From IMG/VR virus record IMGVR_UViG_3300020172_006270, positions 124,001 through 188,000 of that record: a stretch of 64,000 nucleotides of DNA. One strand, written 5' to 3'. The position numbers and the translations under genes are program-made. The notes beneath the pieces were generated by a model, which saw only the letters and a program-made list of their open reading frames with translations, searched no databases and was not told the DNA's origin. Position 1 is the first letter of the stretch, and each line of letters begins with the position of its first letter. Origin of the DNA: a virus. This document shows, one piece after another, positions 4,590-60,845 of the stretch.

Positions 4590-5183
4590 ATGAAAGATTT
4601 TCAAGTATGGCGAAATGAGCAAAGTGCCGAAACGCATACCGAACTCAAGGTAGAGCGTGAGGACTTCTTGCGTATTTGCCAAGAGTATTTTGCCACAACC
4701 CTACGGGGCGGCATGAAAACCCATCATGAATATCTGGAAGAAAATCTAGTCGAAGCCGTCGAGACATCCAGATATGCAATTGAAGTCAATTATCGCACTA
4801 CCTCTAAAGAATCCTTGGAAGGATTTGCCAAGATATGCCTTGGATATGTAAGTGCCGCTCTGAAAAATCACGGATACCACACCAAGCACGTCTTTACAGA
4901 GAAACCCCTCCGTCTGCTCGTCTCGTCCCGTAATTGGGATGACGGCGAATGGACGGGGGTTGTGACCTGGAATACAGATCACAATTGTTTTGTCATTAGC
5001 AAGGGCTTTTATAACAAAGACCGTCGTACCGTATCCGTTCAGCACGCTCAGAAGTGCAACGGAGATTCAGCGGCAGAGGTTACGAAGGAATTGCACAACA
5101 TGATGCACCATCTGAAGGGACAGCCAGATCGTCATGTTGCGAAAATGAAACCAGTGCCATTGAAGAGAGGTCCAAAGGGATAA
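4590..5183 (+). CDS. Unknown protein with capsid-targeting-like N-terminus (197 aa)
   Basis: Begins MKDFQVWRNEQS, fitting the F-x-x-W-x-x-E module seen on many proteins here. It is preceded by GAGGACAAATA. The rest is an alpha/beta domain with no recognised motif and a basic tail (KMKPVPLKRGPKG). It lies 12 nt after the neck gene and its TAA overlaps the ATG of the Nudix gene. A packaged, possibly injected protein is inferred from the N-terminus alone. Confidence 0.7.
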   Translation: MKDFQVWRNEQSAETHTELKVEREDFLRICQEYFATTLRGGMKTHHEYLEENLVEAVETSRYAIEVNYRTTSKESLEGFAKICLGYVSAALKNHGYHTKHVFTEKPLRLLVSSRNWDDGEWTGVVTWNTDHNCFVISKGFYNKDRRTVSVQHAQKCNGDSAAEVTKELHNMMHHLKGQPDRHVAKMKPVPLKRGPKG

Positions 5184-5797
5184 TGAACCACGATATTTGC
5201 CAACACTGCGGAGCGAACATAAATGAAATCGCTCAAGAACTTCCGCTTTGCGATATTTGCAAACAATGGGGAATAACTCGCCAAGAGATATATCCAACCG
5301 TGGCTGATATGGCAGAGCAGTTTCATCGCATTGGCAAGGGCGGCACCAAATATTGGGGTCGATTGGGCGCTGGCATCGTGTTCACCGATGGAGATAAGAT
5401 TCTTTTGCTAAAAAGAGATGATTCTGGTGACTACGCCGGTCATTGGGGCATTCCAGGTGGAAAGGCAAAAGAAGGCGAAGCACCGCTTGATGTGGCTCAC
5501 CGGGAATCCAGAGAAGAATGCGGAAATGTCGAAGGACAACGCTTCGGACATTTCCATTCCAGAGACGGCGCACACCATTTCCACACATATCTGATGGCAG
5601 TCGCAAAGCCTTTCGACGTACAGCTTTCAAAAGAACACGATGCGTCAGAATGGGCGTCTTTGGACAAGGTGGATGGGATGAAATTGCACCCCAAATTCAA
5701 AGAGGCGTGGCCCGGCTACTTGCGAGCGATCAGGAAGAAATTCCCAAATAAGACCTCATTTGCTGATTGGTGTGAGACTCGCAAAGCCCAAAATTGA
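5183..5797 (+). CDS. Nudix hydrolase with N-terminal zinc ribbon
   Basis: 204 aa, start ATG inside TAATG. An N-terminal CxxC...CxxC pair (CQHCG and CDIC, residues about 6-27) looks like a small zinc ribbon. The Nudix box follows at about residues 90-115: G-x5-E-x7-RE-x2-EE-x-G (GGKAKEGEAPLDVAHRESRE, then ECGN). Nudix enzymes hydrolyse nucleoside diphosphates linked to another group. The zinc ribbon plus Nudix architecture is reminiscent of NADH pyrophosphatase (NudC), but the substrate cannot be told from sequence. It could belong to the NAD-related set with NAMPT at 6181. Confidence 0.85.
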   Translation: MNHDICQHCGANINEIAQELPLCDICKQWGITRQEIYPTVADMAEQFHRIGKGGTKYWGRLGAGIVFTDGDKILLLKRDDSGDYAGHWGIPGGKAKEGEAPLDVAHRESREECGNVEGQRFGHFHSRDGAHHFHTYLMAVAKPFDVQLSKEHDASEWASLDKVDGMKLHPKFKEAWPGYLRAIRKKFPNKTSFADWCETRKAQN

Positions 5798-5820
5798 TGG
5801 GTTTACAACCAATTCTTAAC

Positions 5821-5849
5821 TTGACTGCTATCGTAAATCGGGCTAGAAT
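5821..5849 (+). promoter_or_regulatory. Sigma-70-like (early-type) promoter
   Basis: TTGACT at 5821-5826, a 17-nt spacer, and TAGAAT at 5844-5849. It lies in the 112-nt gap before the winged-helix gene at 5910. The -10 is identical to those upstream of NAMPT and glutamate dehydrogenase. Confidence 0.7.
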
Positions 5850-5909
5850 CTTTTGTCGTAGGTGTACAACAGATATTTTTTAGAGCAGGGACGCTCAGAG
5901 GAGCAAACC

Positions 5910-6200
5910 ATGCTTGCCAAGCTCGTATGTGAAATCGTTCAGTCCCAGCCAGATGGCCTCAAGCACGCTGAAGTGGTCAAGGCCGTATTGCGTAGCGGAT
6001 ATAGACACCAAGGCAACCAGCCTATCTCTGTGGCTGTCTACGAGACTCTGAAAGGTCTTGTGGTCAGTGGCGCAATCAGCCGTATTCAAGATGATCTCAT
6101 GGAGCGGCGATATAAAACAATCGGGGCAACCACCGATTGTCACGATGATTGCCCCGATGAGAAAATTGGTAATCGAATGCTTACAGAATTGTATGCGTAG
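5910..6200 (+). CDS. Small winged-helix DNA-binding protein
   Basis: 96 aa. The ATG at 5910 is 8 nt after AGAGGAG; an upstream in-frame ATG at 5862 has no ribosome site. Residues 1-65 fit a winged helix: helix LVCEIVQSQPDG, recognition region HAEVVKAVLRSG, then YETLKGLVVSGAISRI. It has its own early-type promoter, so it may regulate early transcription. Its last 20 nt overlap the convergent NAMPT gene. Confidence 0.7.
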   Translation: MLAKLVCEIVQSQPDGLKHAEVVKAVLRSGYRHQGNQPISVAVYETLKGLVVSGAISRIQDDLMERRYKTIGATTDCHDDCPDEKIGNRMLTELYA

Positions 6201-7602
6201 TCGCTTCTCGGATTTGAGTAAGCGTCTGATCCACCAGAAGTTCGCCGTTTCTGAAAACGAACTGCAACTGGTCTGGACGAGGATCGGCCTCACTCACAGT
6301 TTGCAATACCTTTCCATGAGCGCCCGCCTCTGACCACACCAGCTTCAGCCGTCCAGCTTTGGACTTCTTACCGCCGTCTGTGACAGGCTGCTTGTAAACG
6401 TCTCGGACTTCATCGCCCACGACCGCCGAAGAACACTTGAAGGCGAACCGTTGCGTATCCCGGTTGAGTTTCTGGAGCAATCCACCACCTGAGCCGAAAG
6501 CGATGTTGTCAGCCGACCAACCGGCCTTTTCCATAGCCGAGAGGATCAGATCGAGCATCTTGAAGTCGATGCCGTCTCCCTGAATAACTCGAACCTTTGG
6601 ATGCAGGACTTTATATCCCTTTGAGTTGACCGTGACGCCAAACTTCTCGCCGAGAATATCCAACACCTTGACCACAACGGTCGGAGGATCGCCGGAGTCC
6701 GGGCGAACAACCAGCACGCCATCACGGGCTAGAACTTCGTCCTTGAGGACGCCGCCCCAAATGTTGGCACAGCAGTTGAAAATGTCGTAGCTGTCGCTCA
6801 CCGTTGCCACGAGTCCGTCTGGATATTGCACCAGCATGTTGCGGCAAGCATCGACTTCGTGTTCACGACCCCACGAAGTAATCGTGCTGTGTTCAGCGGC
6901 AGGAATCGAGAAGCCAGCACATTCTTGATCGTACTGTCCGTAGAACTCATCGTGTAGAACCAATCCAGGGGCAGTATCGGTTCCTCTGAAATTCAGAAGG
7001 TGTGCTGCGCCGCCGATTGCTGCTTGTTCGGGACAAGTGACTCCACGGAATCCGAAGTCATGCAACTTGAAGTCAACCAGTGAAGTGTCGCCGGTTTGTG
7101 CAAGGTACTTGAGGATGACCTTTTTCATCGCCCGGCTTTGCGTGGCGACCGTCGAAGGATACCACACCTGAACCAGTAGCGTTTCCAGGTAGTTGGTCAA
7201 CCAAGCTACCTTGTCGTCGGTGTTCTCCACCGTCATCAGGACGTTGGATTCCCCAACTACGGTTCCTTCGGGAGCCGCCTTGATTTCAACGGGAAGCCGA
7301 CCGCCGTGGGCGTTCAGGATATATTCCCAACCTTCACGGTTGAAGACCTTGCCGCCGAAGTGTCGGTTGAATAATCGTTCCGCTCGGTCAATTTTCTCGG
7401 CGGTAACGACCTGCCCAACCAGATATTGCTTCAGCCAATATTGGAGGCCGAAAAAGGTCGTGGCGGGGTGAACTGACCCGGAACGGGACTCAAAATACGA
7501 ATAGATACGCCGTGTTCCAGGTGGATATTGCTTCCAATGGCTGATTTTGTACGAGTCAGAAAGCCAACAGATGTTGTTGAGCCAATGCCAATTCAGGTTC
7601 AT
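6181..7602 (-). CDS. nadV: Nicotinamide phosphoribosyltransferase (NAMPT/NadV)
   Basis: 473 aa, full length for the family. It makes nicotinamide mononucleotide from nicotinamide and PRPP, the rate-limiting step of NAD salvage. Visible family features: N-terminal DSYKISHWKQYPPGT, the VDFKLHDFGFRGVT motif that holds the nicotinamide stack, the IQGDGIDF phosphate-binding segment and GSGGGLLQKLNRDT. It has its own promoter at 7643-7671. NadV genes are known in several large phages, where they sustain NAD and can counter NAD-depleting defences. A nucleoside hydrolase (55882) and a Nudix enzyme (5183) in this window may feed the same pool. Confidence 0.95.
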   Translation of the reverse strand: MNLNWHWLNNICWLSDSYKISHWKQYPPGTRRIYSYFESRSGSVHPATTFFGLQYWLKQYLVGQVVTAEKIDRAERLFNRHFGGKVFNREGWEYILNAHGGRLPVEIKAAPEGTVVGESNVLMTVENTDDKVAWLTNYLETLLVQVWYPSTVATQSRAMKKVILKYLAQTGDTSLVDFKLHDFGFRGVTCPEQAAIGGAAHLLNFRGTDTAPGLVLHDEFYGQYDQECAGFSIPAAEHSTITSWGREHEVDACRNMLVQYPDGLVATVSDSYDIFNCCANIWGGVLKDEVLARDGVLVVRPDSGDPPTVVVKVLDILGEKFGVTVNSKGYKVLHPKVRVIQGDGIDFKMLDLILSAMEKAGWSADNIAFGSGGGLLQKLNRDTQRFAFKCSSAVVGDEVRDVYKQPVTDGGKKSKAGRLKLVWSEAGAHGKVLQTVSEADPRPDQLQFVFRNGELLVDQTLTQIREATTHTIL

Positions 7603-7642
7603 TTTCGGGTCGTCCTTTCTTGAGAATACCTTGGTTGGAAGG

Positions 7643-7671
7643 ATTCTACCACGAAAGGTGCCGTTTGTAAA
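7643..7671 (-). promoter_or_regulatory. Sigma-70-like promoter for the NAMPT gene
   Basis: On the minus strand: TTTACA (7666-7671), 17-nt spacer, TAGAAT (7643-7648). The leader to the ATG at 7602 is about 35 nt and contains AAGAAAGGA. Confidence 0.7.
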
Positions 7672-7672
7672 T

Positions 7673-8560
7673 TTAGACTATGACCTGTTGGGCGATCCAC
7701 GCAATTTTTTCGGCGTGTCCAAATATGATCTTGGGAAATTCCACGGGCAGTTCGTTAAATGAACTGCGAGCCGGGTCAAGAATTGACTTTACCTTCTCGA
7801 CCAAACGGTTGTAATACATTTCGCCATCTGTTTCGTTCTTGACCGCCTGGATATTGGTTTCACCTGTGCGATCAAGAAATTGAACGTCGCTTGCAAAGCT
7901 CAACCAGAAACAAAGTTTGCCCTCTTGGTGTAGCTTTAATGCTTGGAATTCCAGTAGAAGGTCTTCGCCCAATAATTGGTCTTCATCGTATTCAAGTGTC
8001 TCGGCAAATTTTCGACTGTAGAATACATGCCCGCCCAGATTGTGAGCGGCCCCTCTATTTGTAAACATATCGTGCTGTGCCGGGCCGTAAGTGTACGGCA
8101 AAGGGAATATATTGTCGCCCCAACAACAGGCGTGTACTTTGTCCGCTATTTGAACCGAGTTATTACTATAGTTGTTGATTTGATCGGATGGCTTGACGAT
8201 CAACAAATCGGTGCCAGGATGATGTTTTAGATGTCGTTCTATTTGAAGACCAGCACTTGGATAATACAGGTCGTCACCATCGACCATGCACATTCCATCG
8301 TATTGAGATTCCCGAAAGAATTTGAGGCATTGATTCTTGCCTGCGGCTGGCGTTCCTTTAGATGGTGTGATTTTGTATTGAACTGATTCTTGATCGCACC
8401 ACTGTCTGAATTCACTAATGAATGCAGAGTTCAAAGAATTGATGATGGCAACAACCGAAAATTCAACTTCGGTTGTTGGCATCATATTGCGAATAGAATT
8501 GACAGCCCGAATTGCTTTCGGAACGTCTCGACTGACCAGTGGGCAAACTACAACTTTCAC
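7673..8560 (-). CDS. GT-A-fold glycosyltransferase-like protein
   Basis: 295 aa from a GTG at 8560 whose bases overlap the TGA of rfbA (GTGA), with GGAAAGAAG upstream. An in-frame ATG at 8596 would overlap rfbA by 40 nt and is less likely. The fold starts with KVVVCPLVSRDVPKAIRAV and has MVDGDDLYYP, an acidic metal/sugar-nucleotide motif of the DxD type. Coupling to the nucleotide-sugar enzyme RfbA suggests transfer of a dTDP-derived sugar. The acceptor is unknown. Confidence 0.7.
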   Translation of the reverse strand: MKVVVCPLVSRDVPKAIRAVNSIRNMMPTTEVEFSVVAIINSLNSAFISEFRQWCDQESVQYKITPSKGTPAAGKNQCLKFFRESQYDGMCMVDGDDLYYPSAGLQIERHLKHHPGTDLLIVKPSDQINNYSNNSVQIADKVHACCWGDNIFPLPYTYGPAQHDMFTNRGAAHNLGGHVFYSRKFAETLEYDEDQLLGEDLLLEFQALKLHQEGKLCFWLSFASDVQFLDRTGETNIQAVKNETDGEMYYNRLVEKVKSILDPARSSFNELPVEFPKIIFGHAEKIAWIAQQVIV

Positions 8561-9291
8561 AGGTTCTTCTTTCCAAGTTTGCTGGCTGCATAGCAAGTCT
8601 GCGTATATCCTTCGAGGCTTTCACCGCAGTCTGCCCACCAACCGTCAATCTTGTGGGCATGGAGTTTTCCAATATTCAAGTAACGGTTGTTGAGATCGGT
8701 GATTTCGAGTTCATTACGTTTGGATGGCTTGAGTGTTCTGATGTAATCCCACACTCCTCCATCGTACATATACAACCCTGTTGCAATCAAGTTGGACTTC
8801 GGCTCTTTTGGCTTTTCTTCGATGCCAATTACCTTGCCTGCTGCGTCCGTTTCGACTACGCCATAACACTCTGGATGTTCTACCGGCGTTAAGAAGATGT
8901 GCGCCCCATCTGGGTTTGCCTCGAATTCAGTAACAATCTGAGGGACAGGGTTCTCGTAGATATTGTCGGCCAAGATTACTGCAACTGGCTCGTTGTCGGC
9001 CCACTCCTCGGCCAGCGACAAAGCGTCGGCAATGCCTTTGGCTTCTTTCTGGTATGTGTAGTGAAGATGCTTCAGTCCAAATTCTTCGCCGTTGCCAAGA
9101 ATCCTGAGAAATTCACCAGCGGCGTTGCCGCCACATACCAAAAGAATGTCTTTAATGCCGCTGCCCACCAGCGTTTGAATCGGCCAATAAATCATGGGTC
9201 GATCATACACTGGCAATAAGCATTTGTTGGTTACTTTTGTCAAAGGATGAAGTCTCGTCCCCATCCCGCCTGCTAAAATAATGCCTTTCAT
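8557..9291 (-). CDS. rfbA: Glucose-1-phosphate thymidylyltransferase (RfbA/RmlA-type)
   Basis: 244 aa, the short form of the family. It makes dTDP-glucose from dTTP and glucose-1-phosphate, the first step to rhamnose-type sugars. Visible: the nucleotide-binding signature GGMGTRLHPLTKVTNKCLLP (residues 8-27), YDRPMIYWPIQTL, GxCYGVVE-like HPECYGVVETD, and EEKPKEPKSN. The start follows CGGAGAAAACAG. It forms a two-gene unit with the glycosyltransferase downstream. No rmlB/C/D is visible here, so the product may enter a host pathway. Confidence 0.92.
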   Translation of the reverse strand: MKGIILAGGMGTRLHPLTKVTNKCLLPVYDRPMIYWPIQTLVGSGIKDILLVCGGNAAGEFLRILGNGEEFGLKHLHYTYQKEAKGIADALSLAEEWADNEPVAVILADNIYENPVPQIVTEFEANPDGAHIFLTPVEHPECYGVVETDAAGKVIGIEEKPKEPKSNLIATGLYMYDGGVWDYIRTLKPSKRNELEITDLNNRYLNIGKLHAHKIDGWWADCGESLEGYTQTCYAASKLGKKNL

Positions 9292-9360
9292 TCTGTTTTC
9301 TCCGATAAAAGGGTGGACAGAATAAAGGAGTGTTCAAAAACAAAATCCAAATGACACAAC

Positions 9361-9387
9361 TATATAACTCTTGAAGGACACTTCAAG
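9361..9387 (+). promoter_or_regulatory. TATATA box and inverted repeat before a secreted-protein gene
   Basis: TATATA at 9361-9366, followed by the perfect inverted repeat CTTGAA-6 nt-TTCAAG (9370-9387). The repeat could be an operator or a leader stem-loop for the gene starting at 9416. Confidence 0.35.
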
Positions 9388-9415
9388 ACACACTTTTTTG
9401 CACATGGAGGGCATA

Positions 9416-9922
9416 GTGAAACACTTATTGGTTCTATTGGCATTGCTTGTACCAAGCATCTTTATGCCACAAATTGCTAGTGCGGCAAACGCAGAGGCGA
9501 CAATAGAGAAGGAAATCGAACTCAAATCAACAGCACAAAGAACGATTGATTGGGTCGATTCTCATCGAGATGCCGTTCGAGAGGCATCAGGCGTATCTCT
9601 TTTAGAAGACCTTGGCAATGGTAAGTTTAAGGTCCGTAGAGATTCCAGCAAGGGGGTCTTCATCTGGATCAGCAAAGAGACAATTGAAAAGAAACCAGAT
9701 GGCAGTTTTGTCTTTAAGTCTACTATGGTTGAATCTATTGAGGGTGGAATAGAATATTCCAAATCCGAAGTTACAATCAAAGACATTAAAGGCGGCGTTA
9801 GCATCAAAATCAAAACGTCTACTGGCATCAATAACCGACGTGTCACATCAGGACAGCTTCGGATTGACACCAATGTTCATCTCAACAGAGTGAAAAGACT
9901 GTTAGAAGAAAACATCCGTTAA
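9416..9922 (+). CDS. Exported protein of unknown function
   Basis: 168 aa from a GTG at 9416, five bases after GGAGG. The ATG at 9404 overlaps that ribosome site and an earlier one (9371) sits in the inverted repeat, so GTG is preferred. The N-terminus is a clear signal peptide: VKH, a hydrophobic core LLVLLALLVPSIFM, then a cleavage region QIASA/ANA. The mature part is beta-rich and charged with no recognised motif. It is exported, perhaps to the periplasm. A strong terminator follows. Confidence 0.75.
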   Translation: MKHLLVLLALLVPSIFMPQIASAANAEATIEKEIELKSTAQRTIDWVDSHRDAVREASGVSLLEDLGNGKFKVRRDSSKGVFIWISKETIEKKPDGSFVFKSTMVESIEGGIEYSKSEVTIKDIKGGVSIKIKTSTGINNRRVTSGQLRIDTNVHLNRVKRLLEENIR

Positions 9923-9927
9923 ACAAA

Positions 9928-9955
9928 AAAGGCCCCGGTAAAAACCGGGGCCTTT
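9928..9955. terminator. Bidirectional rho-independent terminator
   Basis: 12-bp perfect stem AAAGGCCCCGGT / ACCGGGGCCTTT with an AAAA loop. A-runs and T-runs on both sides serve the plus gene ending at 9922 and the minus gene ending at 9960. Confidence 0.9.
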
Positions 9956-9959
9956 CTCT

Positions 9960-10793
9960 TTATGCTGCCGCTTCTGAGGTTTGTAATCTTGGTTCTTCGC
10001 CAAAGAAGATTACTCCTGGTCTGTTTACCACTTTGTTAAATGGCGGCATATCCAGTTCTGCGTATTCGGTACGCTCAAAGAACAAACTGTCGGTGGGTTC
10101 GGTTCTTGCCTTGTGCTTAGGCGGCAACTGATCCATTTCTTCAACAGTAAATGGCTTCATGGTCTTCTTGCGTTGTACGAATGTGCCTCGCTTAAAGAAT
10201 GCAGGATAGTCATTCCAGTTGATTCCTTTTTCTTTCCACAGCATTTCTTGCATCTGTGGGCCGTTCTTGTTTTCAACCTGTTTGTGGCTGAAGTAAGTAC
10301 GAGCCGCCATCGAGATGCTGTTCTTGGTTGCGTCGTGTTCTCTCCACAAGAAAGCGTTGGCACCTTCCATAGCGTTTGGAACACACCATACTCGACAGTC
10401 AAACGTCGGCATCTTGGCCGAATATTCTTCTGGCAAGTATTTGGGCAGGTTCTTGTTGAAATACACCGACTGCATAGCTGCCAAGATGGAGAGCATTTTG
10501 CTTACCCTTCCATCAAAGAAGATTTCGCAGTCGAAGTCCGCAGCAAACCACCCAAGGGTGATCTCATCAGACTGAGTATATCCGCAACTTGCGTTCGTCT
10601 CTTGCACCAAGTATTTGGTGCTATCAATCATGAGCCTTGACATGCGCTCATCATATGGCCGTTTGAGGCCCTTGCAAAAACTGTGAAATGCCCGGCCATC
10701 AAGCCGTGCAATGACCGGCAGCAAGGGCATCAGTTTTCGCCCCGCTTCGCTCATCTCGTACAGTTTCATTCGGTCGCCAAAGTCGTCTTTCAT
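9960..10793 (-). CDS. Thg1-like 3'-5' polymerase (tRNA-His guanylyltransferase family)
   Basis: 277 aa. N-terminal DDFGDRMKLYE and the catalytic RLDGRAFHSF (residues 30-39), with YTQSDEITL (72-80), match the Thg1/TLP family. The metal-binding acids are D32 and D76/E77. Members add nucleotides in the 3'-5' direction, either G-1 of tRNA-His or repair of 5'-truncated tRNAs. The gene overlaps the end of the upstream gene by 95 nt, but the family start is well matched at 10793 (GGAAAG upstream). No tRNA gene is seen in this window, so the substrate would be host tRNA or tRNAs elsewhere in the phage. Confidence 0.9.
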   Translation of the reverse strand: MKDDFGDRMKLYEMSEAGRKLMPLLPVIARLDGRAFHSFCKGLKRPYDERMSRLMIDSTKYLVQETNASCGYTQSDEITLGWFAADFDCEIFFDGRVSKMLSILAAMQSVYFNKNLPKYLPEEYSAKMPTFDCRVWCVPNAMEGANAFLWREHDATKNSISMAARTYFSHKQVENKNGPQMQEMLWKEKGINWNDYPAFFKRGTFVQRKKTMKPFTVEEMDQLPPKHKARTEPTDSLFFERTEYAELDMPPFNKVVNRPGVIFFGEEPRLQTSEAAA

Positions 10794-11031: not shown

Positions 11032-11514
11032 TCAAGTTGTCTTTCTCACGATCCAGGCATAAGGAGCAATGCCGCATTCGTGACAGTAGTACAGATGATG
11101 TTGTAACCAATGAGATCGAAAACTCGCCTTTGTCCACCATCCGGTATATCCCAATGTATTAACGCAAAAGAATTCTTTCGGATTCCTTTCGGCAATCAAG
11201 TAATAATGGCCTTCGAGTTTTTCTTTGAAGATAAAAGCTGATTTCATTATGACGGCTCGTCCCGCCTTTAACGCATCATCTATTACTTGAATATTTGGGT
11301 TAGATCGAGGGGTTATTTTGATCCCATCTATGCTGTACAGTGATTCGACAAAGCAACTTAAATCAGTTCCATCAGGCTTGCAGTTGCAATGCTCCATCCA
11401 GTAATTATAACGTGTTGCGTAAGTGGCTTTTTTGCCAAGCCATTTTTCCAAGTTCAGCAGAGCAACGGGGCCGCATGAGTGTTCGTTCCGTTGGTTTATC
11501 CATCGGGTCTTCAT
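11032..11514 (-). CDS. C39-like papain-fold cysteine peptidase
   Basis: 160 aa. Q8 and C14 in NQRNEHSCGPVALLN match the oxyanion Gln and catalytic Cys of C39-type bacteriocin-processing peptidases. A later EGHYYLIAER...FFCVN supplies His and Asn/Asp candidates. There is no transporter domain, so this is a stand-alone peptidase. The start has no Shine-Dalgarno but has TAAATA exactly 4 nt before the ATG. It is a possible processing or anti-host protease. Confidence 0.7.
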   Translation of the reverse strand: MKTRWINQRNEHSCGPVALLNLEKWLGKKATYATRYNYWMEHCNCKPDGTDLSCFVESLYSIDGIKITPRSNPNIQVIDDALKAGRAVIMKSAFIFKEKLEGHYYLIAERNPKEFFCVNTLGYTGWWTKASFRSHWLQHHLYYCHECGIAPYAWIVRKTT

Positions 11515-11518
11515 GCCC

Positions 11519-11524
11519 TATTTA
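11519..11524 (-). promoter_or_regulatory. TAAATA box 4 nt before ATG (leaderless-type late promoter)
   Basis: Minus-strand TAAATA, then GGGC, then the ATG of the C39-like peptidase. It lies inside the end of the upstream gene. Part of a recurring class in this window. Confidence 0.55.
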
Positions 11525-12292
11525 TGACTGAGCATTGTATTGAGCCAAAAATTGTGGCACCAATTGCATGATTTGATCGTGCGGATTTTCGTGGTTATAG
11601 CCAAATCTATTGACATTTTTTTGCCAAACTTCAGGCTTTGCAAAACCGCTGAAGTAATTCTTATGGGTTGTGGTGAACCCCGGCTTGTCCAATATTGATT
11701 GTGCTTTGGTTAAATCGAATGGTTCGCCGGGGAAGTTTTTGGCATACAAATAGGCCATTTGTCTGGCGTGCGCTCGAACCTCTCCGGGATTGCTCATGTA
11801 TTGCATCGCCATGCGGTGCTTATCGTCGCCTTCCCAATCGTTTGAATCATATTCTGCACCCACATTGTAAATGTGTTCTGCTTCATGGTGCATTGCCGAT
11901 TTAAGAGTTGCCAAATGTGCATCAACATCTTCTATGCTCTTGGCATAGTTGAAAGGATACATATTGATGACAAAGCCCTCGAACTTGCCGTTGTTGTGAA
12001 CGGTATCGGCAGCATTGTGGCCCAGCTTGAGTTTGAATTGAACTCGTTGACCAGCAATATCAGCGGGGAAGATGTTGGGCAGCACAAATTCGCCGTTTTG
12101 AACAGCGTCTTGCGGCCAAACTTGTCTGACGTAGTTCGTATACGTCTGATTTGGCTGACCGGCCTGCATGTCTCTCTTTTTGAGAGCGGTGGCCTTGTCA
12201 AGAATATCTTCAAGAAAACGTGCGACTTGAATCTCAACGATGTGTTGAGATTCTTGAAGATTTAGCCAATGATGAAATGAAAACTTCCCCAT
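11522..12292 (-). CDS. Capsid-targeting-like N-terminus on a zincin metalloprotease-like protein
   Basis: 256 aa. Begins MGKFSFHHWLNLQES: the F-x-x-W-L-x-L-x-E module, with LQE as the predicted cut site. Residues 136-140 are HEAEH, an HExxH zinc site, and E171 in NPGEVRAHA is a good third ligand. The surroundings are helical. It is expressed from a box inside a terminator hairpin with no Shine-Dalgarno. I infer a head-packaged protease delivered with the DNA. Confidence 0.7.
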   Translation of the reverse strand: MGKFSFHHWLNLQESQHIVEIQVARFLEDILDKATALKKRDMQAGQPNQTYTNYVRQVWPQDAVQNGEFVLPNIFPADIAGQRVQFKLKLGHNAADTVHNNGKFEGFVINMYPFNYAKSIEDVDAHLATLKSAMHHEAEHIYNVGAEYDSNDWEGDDKHRMAMQYMSNPGEVRAHARQMAYLYAKNFPGEPFDLTKAQSILDKPGFTTTHKNYFSGFAKPEVWQKNVNRFGYNHENPHDQIMQLVPQFLAQYNAQS

Positions 12293-12316
12293 GACGTTAT
12301 TTACGTCATGGGGAAG
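12284..12316 (-). terminator. Terminator hairpin with late promoter box and start codon embedded
   Basis: A perfect 14-bp stem (CTTCCCCATGACGT / ACGTCATGGGGAAG) with a 5-nt loop, followed on the minus strand by TTTT. It terminates the gene ending at 12322. The minus-strand loop region contains TAAATA (12298-12303), and the 3' arm contains the ATG (12292) and first codons of the next gene. Confidence 0.75.
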
Positions 12317-16009: not shown

Positions 16010-16234
16010 TTACCAAGAGCTATCAGCAGGTGCCTTGCGGCTTGGCTGATGCTTGCCCATTTTCTGGAGAGCATCTGCGGCGGTAGGCATGAAATAACCA
16101 TCTGGATACTGTTGACGAACGTATGCGTCCGGGTAAGCCCAATGTGCAATACCAGCACGCTTTGTGTTTTCGTCTTGCATATACAGAGGCAGTTCTTTCT
16201 TGACTTCGCCTGCCCATTGAATAAATGTCTTCAT
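16010..16234 (-). CDS. Small protein with capsid-targeting-like N-terminus (74 aa)
   Basis: MKTFIQWAGEVKKE at the start fits the F-x-x-W-x-x-E module and is close to the T4 internal-protein start MKTYQEFIAEA. GAGGAAAAAAAT precedes the ATG. The remainder is short, with Tyr/Trp/Pro-rich segments. A packaged small internal protein is inferred. Confidence 0.65.
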   Translation of the reverse strand: MKTFIQWAGEVKKELPLYMQDENTKRAGIAHWAYPDAYVRQQYPDGYFMPTAADALQKMGKHQPSRKAPADSSW

Positions 16235-21441: not shown

Positions 21442-22449
21442 ATGCTATCGTACAAACAGTGGAAGACGCTGAATGAGTCTGTATTACCGAGCTTCAATCT
21501 TGGTATTGCCAACCCATCAAACCTGGGCATTCAAGCTCCATCCGGCTTCGGCATGGACCTAGAAGAAGCCAAAAAGATGTCCAAGAAGAAAGCCAAAAAG
21601 AAAATGTTTGGCGATGATGAGGAAGATGAAACCGGCGACGGTGAGATGGTTGAACCATCTTCTGAAAAAGACGATCCAGATGTGGACGTTGATGTGGATT
21701 CTGATGATGACGGCGATGAAAAGCCTAAGTTCAGCAAGAAGTGCGGCAATATGTGCGGCGCTCAATCCAAGAAGAAGTCCAAGGCCAAGTGTGGTGCCGA
21801 TATGGACGATGATGATATGGACGATGAAGAAGGTGCCGATATTGACGCCGAGGGCGACGATGAAGGCGATGACGAGGGCAAGAAAGACTTGAACTCGGTT
21901 CTCTTCTCGAAGAAGAAGTCCAAGAAGAAAATGATGAAGTCCAAGAAGAAAATGTGGTCTGACAATGACGACAGCGACGGCGACGATGAAGACGCTGAAG
22001 ACATGGGCGACGAAGACATGAGCGACGAAGACATGAGCGACGAAAACATGAGCGACGAAGACATGGAAGACGCCGAAGAAGAGGCCGGTGTAGACTTGGA
22101 CGGCGATGACGAAGAAGGCGAGCCAGAAGAACACAAGAAAAAGGTTCTAGGTGGCAAAGGCGGCGATGTCGGCGGCGGCATGGGTGATGCAGGCCCAATG
22201 TTCTCCAAGAAGTCATCTAAGAAGAAAATGCAAAAAGAAGCCACTGACGAAGAGAAGTGGTGGAATAGCGTTCAAAGCATGACCGGCAGTTCTCCTGATA
22301 CGAAGTACAACGATGGTTGGACTGAATATCAAAGCACTGGTGGCGGCGAAAATCTATTCACTCCAGTTGATACCGAGAACTTAACTCAGGCTGTTCGTCC
22401 TGAGCCGGGTCAGCCAGGATTTGCTCCTTCCGGTCGCATTGGCAGCTAA
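21442..22449 (+). CDS. Alternating acidic/basic low-complexity protein with capsid-targeting-like start
   Basis: 335 aa. Begins MLSYKQWKTLNES, with the module and an LNE cut site; GAGGAATAATT precedes it. Beyond residue 40, long Asp/Glu blocks (including tandem MSDED repeats, about residues 192-208) alternate with FSKK/SKKKSKKK basic blocks at about residues 97, 154 and 255. It also contains Cys-rich bits (KKCGNMCGAQSKKKSKAKCG). The last 80 residues are a Gly/Pro-rich non-repetitive tail. A disordered polyampholyte packed in the head is inferred. Confidence 0.75.
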   Translation: MLSYKQWKTLNESVLPSFNLGIANPSNLGIQAPSGFGMDLEEAKKMSKKKAKKKMFGDDEEDETGDGEMVEPSSEKDDPDVDVDVDSDDDGDEKPKFSKKCGNMCGAQSKKKSKAKCGADMDDDDMDDEEGADIDAEGDDEGDDEGKKDLNSVLFSKKKSKKKMMKSKKKMWSDNDDSDGDDEDAEDMGDEDMSDEDMSDENMSDEDMEDAEEEAGVDLDGDDEEGEPEEHKKKVLGGKGGDVGGGMGDAGPMFSKKSSKKKMQKEATDEEKWWNSVQSMTGSSPDTKYNDGWTEYQSTGGGENLFTPVDTENLTQAVRPEPGQPGFAPSGRIGS

Positions 22450-26737: not shown

Positions 26738-26743
26738 TAAATA
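26738..26743 (+). promoter_or_regulatory. TAAATA box 4 nt before ATG (leaderless-type late promoter)
   Basis: TAAATA, AAGC, ATG at 26748. No Shine-Dalgarno. Back to back with the early-type promoter of the amidoligase operon. Confidence 0.6.
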
Positions 26744-26747: not shown

Positions 26748-27053
26748 ATGTACGGATTCAAACAATTTATCACCGATCAGGGCGGCGATGGGGACATCAT
26801 AAATGTTTACCTTAACAGCCCAAAAATACGCATCTCCGAAATTGCTCAACAATTTGGCAAATCGGAGGCCGAGATATATCGTATTCTACACTCCAACGAC
26901 GTGTCGCCGAATAGACAAAAGGTGAATCATCAAAAAGTTCAGAACCTCGCTCAATTAGGCTGGGGAGTTCGAGAAATAGCCGAGTTCACCGGATATACCC
27001 CTCGCAACGTCCGATATATCCTGGCGAAGAATATCTCTGAAGGTAACAAATAA
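26748..27053 (+). CDS. Double helix-turn-helix protein with capsid-targeting-like start
   Basis: 101 aa. MYGFKQFITDQGG matches F-x-x-F-I but has D rather than E at the expected cut. Two helix-turn-helix units follow: ISEIAQQFGKSEAEIYRIL (residues about 29-47) and VREIAEFTGYTPRNVRYIL (about 75-93). A DNA-binding protein that may be packaged and act on entering DNA or host promoters. Its TAA overlaps the ATG of the next gene. Confidence 0.7.
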   Translation: MYGFKQFITDQGGDGDIINVYLNSPKIRISEIAQQFGKSEAEIYRILHSNDVSPNRQKVNHQKVQNLAQLGWGVREIAEFTGYTPRNVRYILAKNISEGNK

Positions 27054-35218: not shown

Positions 35219-35620
35219 TTAGCCGTTTGCCATTGGCTGCATAGGAGGAGTCATTCCACTGCCATTGGTAGTCATCGCATTGCGAGTTGTTTGAGTAGCA
35301 CCTGTAGCACTGAGCTTGCCCCCACCAGCAACTTGTTGGATAATTGTAGTCAATAGAGTAGCGGTTTTGTTCTTATTCAGATTGTGTCTATCTAGCACCT
35401 GGAAAAGACGGTGAACTTGACGTTGAATGTCGTTGGTGATGCCTTCCATTTCCGCTGCTGCTTCTGGCGGTGGATCACGGTCTGTCCCCTGACCAGGATT
35501 TTGTCCCTCTGGACTTGGACCTGTAGGTGGCATTTGATTAGCAGCCGGGTTCATCTGGTTTTGAGCAGGCGGCATCCCGTCTTCTTCTTTTAAGCAAACA
35601 AAATCATGAAAACTTTTCAT
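35219..35620 (-). CDS. Pro/Gln-rich protein with capsid-targeting-like start (133 aa)
   Basis: MKSFHDFVCLKEEDG: F-x-x-F...LKE. Then a Pro/Asn/Gln-rich linker and a short helix (QRQVHRLFQVLDRHNLNKNK). ATG overlaps the stop of the next gene upstream (TAATG). Third of three tandem genes with the same N-terminal module. Confidence 0.7.
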   Translation of the reverse strand: MKSFHDFVCLKEEDGMPPAQNQMNPAANQMPPTGPSPEGQNPGQGTDRDPPPEAAAEMEGITNDIQRQVHRLFQVLDRHNLNKNKTATLLTTIIQQVAGGGKLSATGATQTTRNAMTTNGSGMTPPMQPMANG

Positions 35621-36000
35621 TATCCCCTCGATGCGGCTGGAGTTTGTGGTTCATCTTGAGGCAACATCTGTGGTGGTTGCTGCTGTTGTGGAGTCATGGG
35701 CGGTTGTCCGTGGCCCGTTTGAGCCGCTTGTGGGTCCATGCCACCAAAGAACGCTTCCAGCGTCGAGGACACGATTGCTTGGGCAAACTGATCTCGTACT
35801 TCAGGTGGAACATCCCTGAAGGATTTGATCTTTGGATTTCCTTCACTTAATCGAAGCACTATGGCTTCTTGAAGTTTCCCCACCCTGGGTGCAATAAACG
35901 CTTTCATGTCAGGGCTTGTAGGGAACTTCATTGACTTGATGTGATCCCACTCAGCATTTTGAGTGTTCTCTTTGATTCGCCAATCTTTAAGTGATTTCAT
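35620..36000 (-). CDS. Helical protein with capsid-targeting-like start (126 aa)
   Basis: MKSLKDWRIKENTQ: W followed by IKE as the predicted cut site. A helical core (VGKLQEAIVLRLSEGNPKIK; FAQAIVSSTLEAFF) and a Gln/Pro-rich tail. TAATG coupling on both sides. Confidence 0.7.
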   Translation of the reverse strand: MKSLKDWRIKENTQNAEWDHIKSMKFPTSPDMKAFIAPRVGKLQEAIVLRLSEGNPKIKSFRDVPPEVRDQFAQAIVSSTLEAFFGGMDPQAAQTGHGQPPMTPQQQQPPQMLPQDEPQTPAASRG

Positions 36001-36338
36001 TATTGCACCGGATTCATGACAATAGTATGTGGGTCAGGCTCGTCAGATTGCCCGGTCTTGAGCAACTTGCCGTTATCTTTAGGGTCAGGCGAAGCATCGG
36101 CTTGCCTGACCTTATCGAGAACATGCTTTACCTTGTCATGCCAACCAGAAATCTTTGTGGTTGGAATATCAAGCAATTGTGAAAGACCTTCTGAGTTGTT
36201 GATGACCAATAGAAAATCATCCCAAAACTCATCACGAACGCCTATGCCAGTGCGTATAGCGGACATGGCCCTATCATCTTGGGGCGTCTTTTCTTTCTGA
36301 GCTTGGATATTTTCCCACAGTCGTTGAAACGAACTCAT
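36000..36338 (-). CDS. Helical protein with capsid-targeting-like start (112 aa)
   Basis: MSSFQRLWENIQAQKEKT: F-x-x-L-W-E. Helical, with GISQ-like segment TTKISGWHDKVKHVLDKV. First of three coupled genes (36338 to 35219) whose N-termini all fit the module. Confidence 0.6.
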   Translation of the reverse strand: MSSFQRLWENIQAQKEKTPQDDRAMSAIRTGIGVRDEFWDDFLLVINNSEGLSQLLDIPTTKISGWHDKVKHVLDKVRQADASPDPKDNGKLLKTGQSDEPDPHTIVMNPVQ

Positions 36339-36371: not shown

Positions 36372-36668
36372 TTAGTCTTCTGATACGATTTGAAGAACGT
36401 CGTCGGCATTGCCCAACACATATGTCTTCTTCAAATACATAGCTTGCGAATCAGTGGCGGTAAACGTGTCGCCGTGGTGCAAGTACCCCTTTGGACCAAT
36501 ACCTTGTGTATTAGTGTGTAACAAGCCAGGGATGTAAATGGTGCGAGTAGCACGCATGTTGTCAGCTTCAGAAACAGTCTCATTGCCTTCCAGCGTCGTG
36601 CGGTTTGGCTGCAAGAAACCTTGACGGTTTACTGTTTCAAGATTTACTCTAAATGTAATTGTTTTCAT
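36372..36668 (-). CDS. Small beta-rich protein (98 aa)
   Basis: ATG at 36668 directly after GGAGGAAGTG. MKTITFRVNLETVNRQGFLQ, then beta strands with two TATD/THT-like turns. No family recognised. Overlaps the end of the upstream capsid-targeted gene by 20 nt. Confidence 0.6.
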   Translation of the reverse strand: MKTITFRVNLETVNRQGFLQPNRTTLEGNETVSEADNMRATRTIYIPGLLHTNTQGIGPKGYLHHGDTFTATDSQAMYLKKTYVLGNADDVLQIVSED

Positions 36669-36909
36669 CACTTCCTCCAGTATTGGAATTCTTCTCTGTA
36701 TCTAGTTTAGGGTTACGCTTTTTCGATATTCCAAAGAATAGCTTTTCAGGGTCTATCTCCACTTGACCTGACTTGTTTTGAGAGACATTTCTGGATTTAG
36801 CTCCAGTTCTCCCGAAATCGAGATCGGCATTGGAACGGTTGTCCCATATTTCGCCCCCGCCTTCTGGCGCAGTCTTAGATAGCCATTCTTTGAAACCTGA
36901 TAAACTCAT
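36649..36909 (-). CDS. Small protein with capsid-targeting-like start (86 aa)
   Basis: MSLSGFKEWLSKTAPEGGGE: F-x-x-W-L...PE/GG. The remainder is polar and probably disordered. Preceded by TAAATA five bases before the ATG and by a terminator for the previous gene. Confidence 0.65.
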   Translation of the reverse strand: MSLSGFKEWLSKTAPEGGGEIWDNRSNADLDFGRTGAKSRNVSQNKSGQVEIDPEKLFFGISKKRNPKLDTEKNSNTGGSDENNYI

Positions 36910-36914: not shown

Positions 36915-36920
36915 TATTTA
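36915..36920 (-). promoter_or_regulatory. TAAATA box 5 nt before ATG (leaderless-type late promoter)
   Basis: Minus strand TAAATA, CCCGC, ATG at 36909. No Shine-Dalgarno. Confidence 0.55.
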
Positions 36921-47512: not shown

Positions 47513-47518
47513 TAAATA
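47513..47518 (+). promoter_or_regulatory. TAAATA box 4 nt before ATG (leaderless-type late promoter)
   Basis: TAAATA, TTGT, ATG at 47523. The 33-nt divergent gap also carries TATTAT (47494-47499) four bases before the minus ATG. Confidence 0.6.
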
Positions 47519-47522: not shown

Positions 47523-48059
47523 ATGCGTTTTCACAATTGGCTAGTTTTGCAGGAATCTAACCTACAAGACCTCTATACAAGTACGGTTCAAGCCTTCCCC
47601 CGGACGACCAAAAGACAACATGCCACCGATTTAGTTCGGATCATCGAGTTGAATTGGACGCCCTTCTTGGGGGTCAAAACCCTATTCATAAAGGGTATTG
47701 CGCATAGCGAAGAAAGCGGAAAAGAATATTCCCCAATGGTATTGTTCAAAGGTGTGAATTATCACAACGCCAAGGACAACCAGAATTGGATCGAGATTGT
47801 AGCGAATGATGGTCGTCACTACGTCTTTGAAAGACTCAGTAACGATAACGATGTGTTAGTTCGGTGTGATTGTAATGATTTCAAATGGCGTTTCAACTAC
47901 ACAGATCACATAGATACATCGTTGTATGGGAGAGTCAGAAAGAAGTACGAAGCGAATGTGAATCCTGGCTCGGCGAATCCGCTCGAAATGCCGGGAATGT
48001 GCAAGCACTTAATCAAACTCGTGCAATCTCTCGATCACGCTGGAATCTTGGAGGATTAA
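47523..48059 (+). CDS. SWIM-type zinc-finger protein with capsid-targeting-like start
   Basis: 178 aa. MRFHNWLVLQESN carries the module with LQE as cut site. A SWIM-like CxC...CxH zinc site is formed by C115/C117 (VRCDCNDF) and C160/H162 (MCKHLIK). SWIM fingers bind DNA or proteins. I infer a packaged DNA-binding protein. Confidence 0.75.
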   Translation: MRFHNWLVLQESNLQDLYTSTVQAFPRTTKRQHATDLVRIIELNWTPFLGVKTLFIKGIAHSEESGKEYSPMVLFKGVNYHNAKDNQNWIEIVANDGRHYVFERLSNDNDVLVRCDCNDFKWRFNYTDHIDTSLYGRVRKKYEANVNPGSANPLEMPGMCKHLIKLVQSLDHAGILED

Positions 48060-52309: not shown

Positions 52310-52807
52310 ATGGGTCAGAAGTTTATTTGGTCTGCGGAATGGAGAGACGATAAGACATGGCAGCTTATCGCACCGCCTGCTCCTGTACAAATTGGCACAC
52401 GTCCACATTTGACCATAGAAGAAATAGCCGTGCAGCATGGCAATAATACTGCGTGGATACCCGGCAAGGCATCCTGGAATGAAACAAAGATCACCTATAA
52501 CGACGTAGAAAATGAAGAAGGTGGTGCGTTGTTTATGCGATGGGTGTCTGAGCAATATCGTGCCTTAGACACAACAGAAAGCCGTGGCTGGCAATCAGAA
52601 CGAGCGACAGTTATTTTGAGGCTACATGGTGGAAATGGTGAAGTTTTAGAAGTGTGGTACTTGGAAGATTCTTTTATCACCGCTCTGGATTTTGGCTGTC
52701 CAGGCTACACTAGCTCCTTAGATTACGAGCTAAATGTTGCTGTTAGATATTCCGATGTCAGCTATTCGACACCTGATCCTAAAACATGGCTGAAGCCACT
52801 TACTTGA
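52310..52807 (+). CDS. Tail-tube-like virion protein
   Basis: 165 aa, CAGGAG before the ATG and TATAAT at 52286-52291. The second half has the strand order of tail-tube proteins: ATVILRLHGGNGEVLEVWYL followed by EDSFITALDFG and SLDYELNVAVRYSDVSY, as in T4 gp19-type proteins. The fold is inferred from pattern only. Overlaps the convergent minus gene by 8 nt. Confidence 0.45.
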   Translation: MGQKFIWSAEWRDDKTWQLIAPPAPVQIGTRPHLTIEEIAVQHGNNTAWIPGKASWNETKITYNDVENEEGGALFMRWVSEQYRALDTTESRGWQSERATVILRLHGGNGEVLEVWYLEDSFITALDFGCPGYTSSLDYELNVAVRYSDVSYSTPDPKTWLKPLT

Positions 52808-53000
52808 CGGGAACTGCTGTTGCACCACCTGCTCCTTTGCAAGCTCCACCTGGGCCGGGACCACCACCCATGCCACACAATTTTAGATCGTGTGGTTTTG
52901 GAGTTGTATCTTTTGGGCCGGGCTTAAACAAAGAGTCTTGAGCCTTCCCTTTGCTGATCCAACCGCCTTCGTTCAATGATAGCCAATGTTTGAAATCCAT
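52800..53000 (-). CDS. Small protein with capsid-targeting-like start (66 aa)
   Basis: MDFKHWLSLNEGG: F-x-x-W-L-x-L-N-E, one of the clearest copies. Then a short Gly/Pro/Lys tail. TACATA lies four bases before the ATG. After cleavage at LNE little would remain, so a packaged peptide is likely. Confidence 0.65.
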   Translation of the reverse strand: MDFKHWLSLNEGGWISKGKAQDSLFKPGPKDTTPKPHDLKLCGMGGGPGPGGACKGAGGATAVPVK

Positions 53001-53004: not shown

Positions 53005-53010
53005 TATGTA
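53005..53010 (-). promoter_or_regulatory. TACATA box 4 nt before ATG (leaderless-type late promoter)
   Basis: Minus strand TACATA, CTTC, ATG at 53000. Sits 16 nt after a terminator. Confidence 0.45.
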
Positions 53011-54020: not shown

Positions 54021-54026
54021 TAAATA
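54021..54026 (+). promoter_or_regulatory. TAAATA box 4 nt before ATG (leaderless-type late promoter)
   Basis: TAAATA, AGCT, ATG at 54031. A GGGAG 11-16 nt upstream could serve as a weak ribosome site if the transcript starts earlier. Confidence 0.55.
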
Positions 54027-54030: not shown

Positions 54031-54762
54031 ATGAACTTTTCAGAATGGTTATCAACTAATGAAGCTCGCTGGCGAGGCCCCGTAGGTGGAGCCTTTGGCC
54101 GTGATTCTCGTCGTATGCAACAACAACAAAAGCCGGTGACACCTGTGGCAAAACCAGAAGAAGAATCGCCCAAGCCAGATTTAGGACATGCTCCCAACCC
54201 TGCTGAACGTACTCCACCGCCTCAAATGCGTATGGGCAATAGGTTCCAGAATATTGACCAGAGAGTTCAATATGGAAAGAGCATTGAAAAGCAAATATTT
54301 GATAGCTTGGTTCGATGTGGGATGAAGCTCCGTGAACCGTCCAGCCAAGAAGATATGTACGACAAGATTGACGGCTGGTGGGAAACGCCGAGTGGTGAGA
54401 AGCCTATTCAGATCAAATATCGTGACACCGGAGATGATATTCTCTTCGAGGTAATGAAGGATTATCGACGTGGCGTGCCAGGAAGAGACATGGTTGGTAA
54501 AGCTGAGTTTTATGCCGTGCTAACTCGTGCCGGAGGCAAAATCGTATTAGTGAGCGTTGCAGAAGCCAAAAAGCTCATAGAAGAGATGCGTACCAGAGCC
54601 GAAGATGAAGGGTTTGACCAGCGTGGCAACTTCCGCATGGGTGGTGCAATATTGCGAGTTCGACCTGATCCACGATCACAACAAGATAAACTCATGGCGT
54701 ATATTCCGGTTTCAATGCTCAAGCAAATCACGCCGCCATGTTCTGCCCAAGTAAAATTCTAA
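54031..54762 (+). CDS. Capsid-targeted PD-(D/E)XK nuclease-like protein
   Basis: 243 aa. MNFSEWLSTNEAR carries the module with TNE as the cut site. A Pro/Gln-rich linker (about 30-68) follows, then a domain with E86 (YGKSIEKQIF), D114 (DKIDGWW) and Q127-I-K129 (PIQIKYR), the order of the restriction-fold nuclease site. I infer a nuclease packaged in the head and injected. It is followed 7 nt later by a methyltransferase. Confidence 0.7.
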   Translation: MNFSEWLSTNEARWRGPVGGAFGRDSRRMQQQQKPVTPVAKPEEESPKPDLGHAPNPAERTPPPQMRMGNRFQNIDQRVQYGKSIEKQIFDSLVRCGMKLREPSSQEDMYDKIDGWWETPSGEKPIQIKYRDTGDDILFEVMKDYRRGVPGRDMVGKAEFYAVLTRAGGKIVLVSVAEAKKLIEEMRTRAEDEGFDQRGNFRMGGAILRVRPDPRSQQDKLMAYIPVSMLKQITPPCSAQVKF

Positions 54763-58836: not shown

Positions 58837-59079
58837 TCATTTCTTCTGCACCAACTTGGTGAACTCGCTGTCGGAAAGGTAGGTTTTCGGGTTGCGAAGA
58901 ATCTTTTCCATCAGTTCTTTCCCCCGTGGGCTGTTGAGATGCTCCCAGATGAAACGTCGGGTGGATATATCGTACTGATCGAGTGCGGTTTTCAGAGCAG
59001 ATACGAGGGTCGATATAGCCTGGACTTTATTGTTGCCCCGGTCTTTGCCTTCGTTGATGTATTCCTTGAATGATTCCAT
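58837..59079 (-). CDS. Small helical protein with capsid-targeting-like start (80 aa)
   Basis: MESFKEYINEGKD: F-K-E-Y-I-N-E is the closest match here to the T4 MKTYQEFIAEA. Helical remainder (STLVSALKTALDQYDISTRR). TAGATA lies four bases before the ATG. Confidence 0.7.
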   Translation of the reverse strand: MESFKEYINEGKDRGNNKVQAISTLVSALKTALDQYDISTRRFIWEHLNSPRGKELMEKILRNPKTYLSDSEFTKLVQKK

Positions 59080-59083: not shown

Positions 59084-59089
59084 TATCTA
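59084..59089 (-). promoter_or_regulatory. TAGATA box 4 nt before ATG (leaderless-type late promoter)
   Basis: Minus strand TAGATA, AAGC, ATG at 59079. Confidence 0.5.
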
Positions 59090-59899: not shown

Positions 59900-59903
59900 G
59901 GTG

Positions 59904-59909
59904 TATCTA
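59904..59909 (-). promoter_or_regulatory. TAGATA box 4 nt before ATG (leaderless-type late promoter)
   Basis: Minus strand TAGATA, CACC, ATG at 59899. Confidence 0.5.
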
Positions 59910-59945
59910 TTGTCTCGCCACAATTTGTTTTGATGGCTTGCTGGC

Positions 59946-59951
59946 TAAATA
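59946..59951 (+). promoter_or_regulatory. TAAATA box with leader
   Basis: TAAATACATT, 22 nt before the ATG at 59974, which has AAAGGAG. Confidence 0.5.
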
Positions 59952-59973
59952 CATTAGCCACAAAGGAGATGAT

Positions 59974-60432
59974 ATGGCACCACAAGAAAATGAACAGAAT
60001 CCAATGTCTCTTGAAAACCTACCTGCTTACTTGAAGTCTCTTAAAGAGAAAGGAAGCACAGGTGATTGTCTTGTTGATATGGGAAGGATTGAGGAACCAA
60101 AGAAAATGCCTAATAAATGGTTATGGACTCAGCGAATCTTGTTTACGCTTGCTATCTGCATGATCGCTGGCACAACCGGGTTAATTACTTATGATTTAGC
60201 GTCACGACAAGAGCTTACTGTCGTGGTGAATCTCAACAAAGACGCCAACCCAGCCCAGGCAATTCCAGAAATGGTTTCTGACAGTGGCGGCACTGTTATA
60301 GCAGTCAAACAACATGACAGCACTTCAGCTTATGAAGTCAAGGTGTCTACCCGCAAGAGCCGGAAAGCGCTTTTGGAATGGCTCAACAAGAACAAGAACG
60401 TCAAAGAAGTGAAGCTAAAAGAAGACAAATGA
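59974..60432 (+). CDS. Single-pass membrane protein (152 aa)
   Basis: MAPQENEQNPMSLENLPAYL, then a transmembrane segment ILFTLAICMIAGTTGLITY (about residues 52-70). The outside part is a small alpha/beta domain with ELTVVVNLNKD and KVSTRKSRKALLEWLNKNK. Overlaps the GNAT gene (ATGA). Confidence 0.65.
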   Translation: MAPQENEQNPMSLENLPAYLKSLKEKGSTGDCLVDMGRIEEPKKMPNKWLWTQRILFTLAICMIAGTTGLITYDLASRQELTVVVNLNKDANPAQAIPEMVSDSGGTVIAVKQHDSTSAYEVKVSTRKSRKALLEWLNKNKNVKEVKLKEDK

Positions 60433-60845
60433 TAATTGAATTCAAACAATGGTTGGAGAATAGCTTTCCAGAAGCAGCCTGGGGTCCATCTTCTTTAGTT
60501 GGAAGCAATGGAACTTCGCTCAGAGTCAATGGTGGATACATCGACATTCAACCTGTTACTAAATGGTCGCCCAGAAGCCAATCTGTAATCGACTTTTACG
60601 TTGATGAAGCCAAAAGGAATCAAGGAATTGGAGATTGGCTAGTCAAACAAGCTAAATTGAAATTCAAAGATTTGGGAGCGCAAGTATCATCAATTCCTTC
60701 GATGAAAGTTTTCTTCAATAATGGATTTAGAAATCCAAATATGGCAAATCAATCATTTGAAGATCATGTGAAAGAATTTCAAAACAATGGCTCATCACTC
60801 TTCCTAGCCATGAATGACGACCAAGGAAAGCCTTACTTTAATTGA
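60429..60845 (+). CDS. Capsid-targeted GNAT acetyltransferase-like protein
   Basis: 138 aa, start by ATGA overlap. MIIEFKQWLENSFPEAA carries the module. The GNAT core has VDEAKRNQGIGDWL, the R/Q-x-x-G-x-G acetyl-CoA loop, and MKVFFNNGFR. Acetylates an unknown amine. Packaging and injection are inferred from the N-terminus. Confidence 0.7.
   Translation: MIIEFKQWLENSFPEAAWGPSSLVGSNGTSLRVNGGYIDIQPVTKWSPRSQSVIDFYVDEAKRNQGIGDWLVKQAKLKFKDLGAQVSSIPSMKVFFNNGFRNPNMANQSFEDHVKEFQNNGSSLFLAMNDDQGKPYFN

Follow-up and report, generated by a model that had tools for sequence, protein, structure and literature searches.

The window analysed here, a stretch of 64,000 nucleotides, comprises bases 124001-188000 of a 223,268-base virus record, which is a linear piece and may be incomplete. 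A T4-type head gene cluster lies at its right edge, with a gp23-type capsid protein, a scaffold candidate, an S77 protease and a portal; the original prediction had placed a gp21-like protease at this edge, and an S77 gene does occupy 63673..64000 and run beyond the window. Coordinates below are window positions unless marked as record positions, genes are named by their lower coordinate, and a slash within a protein sequence marks a putative cut.

61296..62732, minus strand: major capsid protein, gp23 type, with a conserved MNE/V putative maturation site
62777..63673, minus strand: scaffold candidate (gp22 position), charged and helical by eye
63673..64000, minus strand, continuing past the window to record position 188356 (record 187673-188356): S77 (gp21-type) prohead protease

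The scaffold candidate had no family match (no PHROG match) and is named from its position and character only. Record 114599-115147 holds a gene for a gp55-like late sigma factor (phrog_234, E 6.8e-9). On the portal side, the protease gene adjoins a gene for a 634-residue protein (L009:1380-3284(-), record 188380-190284) with the N-terminus MKRKLISFDAFKKIEEAS and a merely marginal family match, and the left end of the record (L002, record 1-10600) carries a run of genes that by eye include sugar-nucleotide and glycosyl transferases. Searches for tRNAs and known RNA families found none in the window.

Fourteen genes in the window begin with variants of a short N-terminal sequence, hereafter the tag, in which an aromatic residue (mostly residue 4 or 3) is followed by a second aromatic at +3, by L, I, V or M next to it, and then by hydrophobic-x-E. 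Open reading frames are present at all 14 of the main coordinates originally proposed, with N-termini reading as stated; for reverse-strand genes the coordinate used there was the 3' end, and the N-termini lie at 12292, 16234, 35620, 36000, 36338, 36909, 53000 and 59079.

4590..5183, plus strand: tagged gene, MKDFQVWRNE...; body of no known family; Shine-Dalgarno present
11522..12292, minus strand: tagged gene, MGKFSFHHWLNLQE/SQH; HEAEH in the body, metallopeptidase-like by eye (unproven)
16010..16234, minus strand: tagged gene, MKTFIQWAGEVKKE...; small repeated family found in all relatives, whose homologs retain MKTFxxWA or near variants
21442..22449, plus strand: tagged gene, MLSYKQWKTLNE/SVL; acidic, Lys-rich body; orthologs MLGYSQWKKLNE/SFA and MNSYKKWKELNE/SFG
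26748..27053, plus strand: tagged gene, MYGFKQFITDQGG; weak helix-turn-helix match in the body
35219..35620, minus strand: tagged gene, MKSFHDFVCLKE/EDG
35620..36000, minus strand: tag variant, MKSLKDWRIKE/NTQ; G001 ortholog MKSLCEWRLANSD
36000..36338, minus strand: tag variant, MSSFQRLWENIQAQKE; similar MTSFQRLLENMHNFREE in G002
36649..36909, minus strand: tagged gene, MSLSGFKEWLSKTAPE
47523..48059, plus strand: tagged gene, MRFHNWLVLQE/SNL; F, W and E invariant in 14 orthologs
52800..53000, minus strand: tagged gene, MDFKHWLSLNE/GGW
54031..54762, plus strand: tagged gene, MNFSEWLSTNE/ARW
58837..59079, minus strand: tagged gene, MESFKEYINE/GKD
60429..60845, plus strand: tagged gene, MIIEFKQWLENSFPE/AAW; weak acetyltransferase (GNAT) match

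The best supported of these, by orthologs or by the upstream box described below, are 11522, 21442, 36649, 47523, 52800, 54031 and 58837. Orthologs of 4590 begin MKSFQDWKDE (G001) and MLNFKDYVEE (LR756511). Two further genes had been put forward as possible carriers; 44025 found no support, and 23431 was ruled out because its N-terminus, MKLRNFWLNKSNEK, belongs to a small MKLRNxWL N-terminal family with orthologs in G001 and G002. This gene (23431-23589, plus strand) is a member of a second shared N-terminus, MK(L)xNxWLxxK/R, which occurs on several unrelated genes of the relatives, with four to six instances per relative genome against 0-1.8 expected.

To place these genes in a wider context, we called genes over the whole record with a home-made script (274 genes) and compared it with nine other phages. 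The closest by capsid protein are very large phages, namely LR756511 (595 kb) and the IMG/VR records G001 (533 kb), G002 (343 kb) and G003 (254 kb), which served as relatives; T4, Syn33, a Flavobacterium phage, phiKZ and XacN1 completed the set. DNA searches, near and distant, found no near match among named phages and a single unannotated 595-kb relative.

The pattern [FYW]xx[FWY][LIVMA] starting within residues 2-7 occurred in 25 of the 274 genes, against 4.0 expected from internal positions, and in 17 genes (1.4 expected) when a later E was also required. Since chance alone should give about 4 of these 25, the set found by this pattern includes chance matches, and one might ask whether the tag is no more than chance combined with start-codon bias, given many short reading frames with common hydrophobic starts. 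Such an origin is barely credible: a strong excess remains under the longest-ORF start rule (24 matches), under a held-out model, and under a test of all ATGs without gene calling, and the last two lead us to reject it. The held-out test applied to the record a two-block N-terminus model trained on the four relatives alone. At a log-likelihood ratio (LLR) of at least 3 it recovered 26 genes, with 1.2 expected from internal methionines and 2.2 from shuffled N-termini, and at an LLR of at least 4 it recovered 19 (0.24 and 1.0 expected). A profile search for the module across the whole genome had been proposed, and the module is not confined to the reported span. Tagged genes outside the reported span lie at record positions 21342(-), 25010-25828(-), 25877(+), 37459(+), 47029(+), 76357(-), 76777(-), 86326(+), 95741(+), 122183(-), 190454(+), 196390(+), 209277(+) and 216039(-), and 20-30 tagged genes in the record is a fair estimate.

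A comparable excess is present in the four relatives, and none of similar size was found in T4, Syn33, phiKZ, the Flavobacterium phage or XacN1 (nine matches against 8.7 expected in XacN1, no excess in phiKZ). The three genuine-looking matches in T4 were IPII, IPIII and a 54-codon ORF at 18966. Among the phages tested, the expansion is therefore confined to this clade. A terminase among the tagged proteins of relatives is probably a chance match to the pattern.

The residue order of the tag is the same as in the capsid-targeting sequence of T4 IPIII, the first ten residues of which are enough for packaging, with residues 4 and 7 mainly targeting and residues 8 and 10 governing processing (PMC9026906). 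Across 228 tagged N-termini from five phages, the position of E peaked at +8 (55) and +5 (47), with about 16 per position beyond +12, and hydrophobic-x-E was found in 74, against a shuffle mean of 43 (2000 shuffles, maximum 62). At the putative cut site P3 is mostly L, P2 most often N, and P1' was A, S or G in 40 of 80. The (L/I)-x-E type of ending that had been described for the window genes is thus enriched across the set, and its E is invariant in the 47523 orthologs; a site of clear form follows the tag in only about a third of pattern matches, and is lacking at 16010, 26748, 36000 and 36649. In the 47523 family F3, W6 and E11 are invariant in the 14 orthologs and S12 nearly so, and the stretch from L to E varies by 0-5 residues, as if selection kept the docking residues and the cut site while the spacer drifts. 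The capsid protein has hydrophobic-N-E (M/V/I-N-E) near its N-terminus, as a putative maturation site, at 78 of 80 loci, so one protease specificity could serve both the capsid protein and the tags.

Structure models place a short helix within the tag (residues 6-12 in one model, 3-6 in another), as in many targeting peptides. Together with the fact that only a third of cases show an evident E-containing site, this would suit a short amphipathic helix that is unconnected with the head and directs proteins elsewhere, for example to the host membrane or a different compartment. We give this possibility only a slight chance, given the match to the T4 grammar, the conserved E followed by S, A or G behind a free spacer, the site type held in common with the capsid protein, the encoded S77 protease and the coupling to a late-promoter-like signal.

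The tag behaves as a module. The tagged bodies are mutually unrelated, so the requirement that the tag sit on otherwise unrelated proteins is met, and untagged homologs exist for several of them (G001_485478 for 76357, G001_507468 for 27027 and L078 for 47523). Domains move while the tag stays N-terminal: the 47523 domain makes up the C-terminal part of a 472-residue G002 protein (G002_238140) starting MPDALSFRLWLQQQE, and in L031/L032 the 58837 domain ends a tagged protein of about 180 residues with the N-terminus MRNFKQWRIDE. In the G002 protein at L160:18140-19555(+), the 47523 domain is fused after a long new N-terminal region with the tag again at the start. The tag codons vary from gene to gene, which rules out copying of a single DNA cassette.

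Many tagged genes carry a TANATA box (TAAATA, TATATA, TAGATA or TACATA) near the start codon, and the distance from the end of the box to the ATG shows a sharp peak at 4 and 5 nt. The instances in the window are as follows.

12298..12303, minus strand: TAAATA, 5 nt before the ATG of 11522..12292
26738..26743, plus strand: TAAATA, 4 nt before the ATG of 26748
36915..36920, minus strand: TAAATA, 5 nt before the ATG of 36649..36909
47513..47518, plus strand: TAAATA, 4 nt before the ATG of 47523
53005..53010, minus strand: TACATA, 4 nt before the ATG of 52800..53000
54021..54026, plus strand: TAAATA, 4 nt before the ATG of 54031
59084..59089, minus strand: TAGATA, 4 nt before the ATG of 58837..59079

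Over five phages, a box at 4-5 nt preceded 53 of 174 tagged and 67 of 2640 untagged genes (odds ratio 16.8). Because the compared phages are kin, pooled p-values overstate independence; single-genome Fisher tests gave p-values from 1.7e-3 to 3.5e-11. When gene calling was dispensed with and every ATG opening at least 40 codons was considered, 93 of 216 ATGs with the box at 4-5 nt were tagged (43%), compared with 459 of 24,499 ATGs without the box (1.9%). The short box at a fixed spacing was spotted by inspection and tested afterwards with control boxes and spacings, which behave differently, so that the coupling to the tag is spacing-specific. The full TATAAATA showed no excess upstream of tagged genes at any distance. 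Boxes 4-5 nt before tagged ATGs occur in the four relatives too; T4 and Syn33 showed no box peak at the start codon, and XacN1 showed a small peak at 5 nt.

The T4 late box TATAAATA sits at about -13 to -6. A box of this kind at the spacing seen here would place the transcription start at the A of the ATG, and we infer that the box genes probably yield leaderless late mRNAs. The spacing agrees with this reading, as do a pyrimidine at -1 (C or T in 113 of 120 box genes) and the lack of a good Shine-Dalgarno sequence in 108 of the 120. A divergent upstream neighbour was found for 46% of box genes vs 19%. The TANATA box is late-promoter-like by its sequence and by the encoded gp55-like sigma factor, and its use as a promoter is inferred from these alone. 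In a search of literature titles and abstracts, with subscription papers mostly not covered, no start-codon-adjacent box or leaderless late mRNA was found for T4-type phages; new here are the coupling of box and tag, the position of the box 4-5 nt before the ATG, and the prediction, still an inference, of leaderless late mRNAs.

Some box genes lack the tag. The gene at 11032-11514(-) has the box without the full tag, starts MKTRWINQRNEHSCGPVALLN and is C39-type peptidase-like by eye, and the box also stands directly before the ATG of untagged genes at 60849-61211(-) and 20117-20299(+), the former of which adjoins the capsid gene and may be structural.

Most tagged bodies had no family match, and a fold search with the 47523 body gave no usable match. 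BLAST (E 1e-4) of the record's tagged genes against a set including T4 genes placed no T4 gene among the best matches listed, IPI, IPII and IPIII included, and PADLOC gave few and weak matches on tagged proteins. Among the relatives, tagged proteins matched a C39-type peptidase and a HAD-like phosphatase (G001), DUF3293 and radical SAM (G002), and a phosphoribosyltransferase and another phosphodiesterase-type protein (LR756511). Such enzyme-like bodies are hard to reconcile with a tag that marks structural parts of the tail, neck or baseplate instead of internal, injected cargo, and the tagged set varies between phages as accessory cargo does. Apart from box genes such as the neighbour of the capsid gene, which are untagged and may be structural, little speaks for a structural role, and we judge it very unlikely.

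Both this record and G002 encode a tagged 2H phosphoesterase that scores above the Acb1 cut-off of Pfam, and a homolog in L074 is tagged in a similar way. The protein matches PF23474 at 34.9 bits (cut-off 27) and has two H-x-T motifs (PHITL and PHVTI); PF23474 is slightly outscored by the general 2'-5' RNA ligase family. Its structure model, built from five sequences, is of modest confidence (pLDDT 58.6) with a loose N-terminus, and in a fold search it matched the 2H superfamily, all at E>0.001, with Acb1 itself ranked low. Injection of an anti-CBASS enzyme should therefore be taken as a lead and not a result.

Because the tag meets the defining features that can be tested and follows the T4 working principle, we classify it as a T4-type capsid-targeting sequence. 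At the level of sequence, the T4-type reading originally advanced is supported by the tag grammar, the E site followed by A, S or G, the capsid site, the S77 protease, the late-promoter-like signal and modular fusion, and we hold with high confidence that the shared N-terminus is such a sequence on a large and mixed set of proteins, many of them predicted to be expressed late. For this metagenomic record there are neither virion proteomics nor transcript data, and docking, cutting, packaging and injection are inferred on the precedent of T4. During head assembly, the aromatic pair (i, i+3) would attach the tagged protein to the scaffold core. Cleavage by the S77 protease behind hydrophobic-x-E would then leave the mature protein in the head, from which it would be injected along with the DNA. 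Many tagged genes would be expressed late, from a promoter of gp55 type with its TANATA box immediately ahead of the start codon, on mRNAs that are probably leaderless.

These data suggest a T4-type internal-protein set that is greatly enlarged and in part co-regulated, its packaging being inferred, with which the virus would inject many diverse proteins into the host together with its DNA. More tentatively, and at somewhat less than even chances, the injected set may be a defined regulon, in which a start-codon-fused late promoter (giving leaderless mRNAs) and the tag form a two-part module on unrelated proteins; one of these would be an anti-CBASS enzyme, packaged in the head and acting before phage gene expression. 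If tag and promoter-like box together name the cargo, the injected proteome of uncultivated huge phages could be read from sequence, and an unusual use of leaderless late mRNAs is predicted along with it. Those T4 internal proteins that have been characterised inhibit Type IV restriction enzymes (PMC12373910); according to a review of 2026, Tad1 is the sole anti-defence protein described in jumbo phages (PMC13282480). With 20-30 tagged genes per record, many first-response anti-defence and host-takeover proteins would come to light, any such role being at present an inference.

Several known systems share parts of this arrangement. The Acb1 anti-CBASS phosphodiesterase shares with the protein found here the two H-x-T motifs and above-cut-off matches to PF23474 and the 2H superfamily; the protein here differs in bearing the tag, and structure comparison backs the 2H superfamily, with only weak support for Acb1 itself. 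The ejection proteins of SPN3US and phiKZ are likewise a large head-packaged set, some of whose propeptides are removed by the prohead protease, but their N-terminal propeptides are mostly longer than 100 residues (PMC5694885), whereas the tag here is short; phiKZ had no S77 Pfam match. T4 Alt, gp67, gp68 and other core proteins also have N-terminal propeptides or fragments cut by gp21. Alt had been thought to start MKTYQEFIAEA, which is wrong: it starts MELITELFDE, without the aromatic pair and unlike the tags here. T4-type late promoters (TATAAATA, gp55) share the TANATA box and an encoded late sigma candidate, and differ in that the box here ends 4-5 nt before the ATG. The closest parallel in design is found in T4 IPI, IPII and IPIII, which share (with the tag of IPIII) an N-terminal tag of about ten residues, aromatics at i and i+3, I or L at i+4 and E at the cut, as well as unrelated bodies and a gp21-type protease. 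The T4 set comprises three tagged genes, whereas the set described here comprises 20-30 dispersed genes, with W frequent at i+3, a variable spacer before E, and a promoter-like box directly at the start codon.
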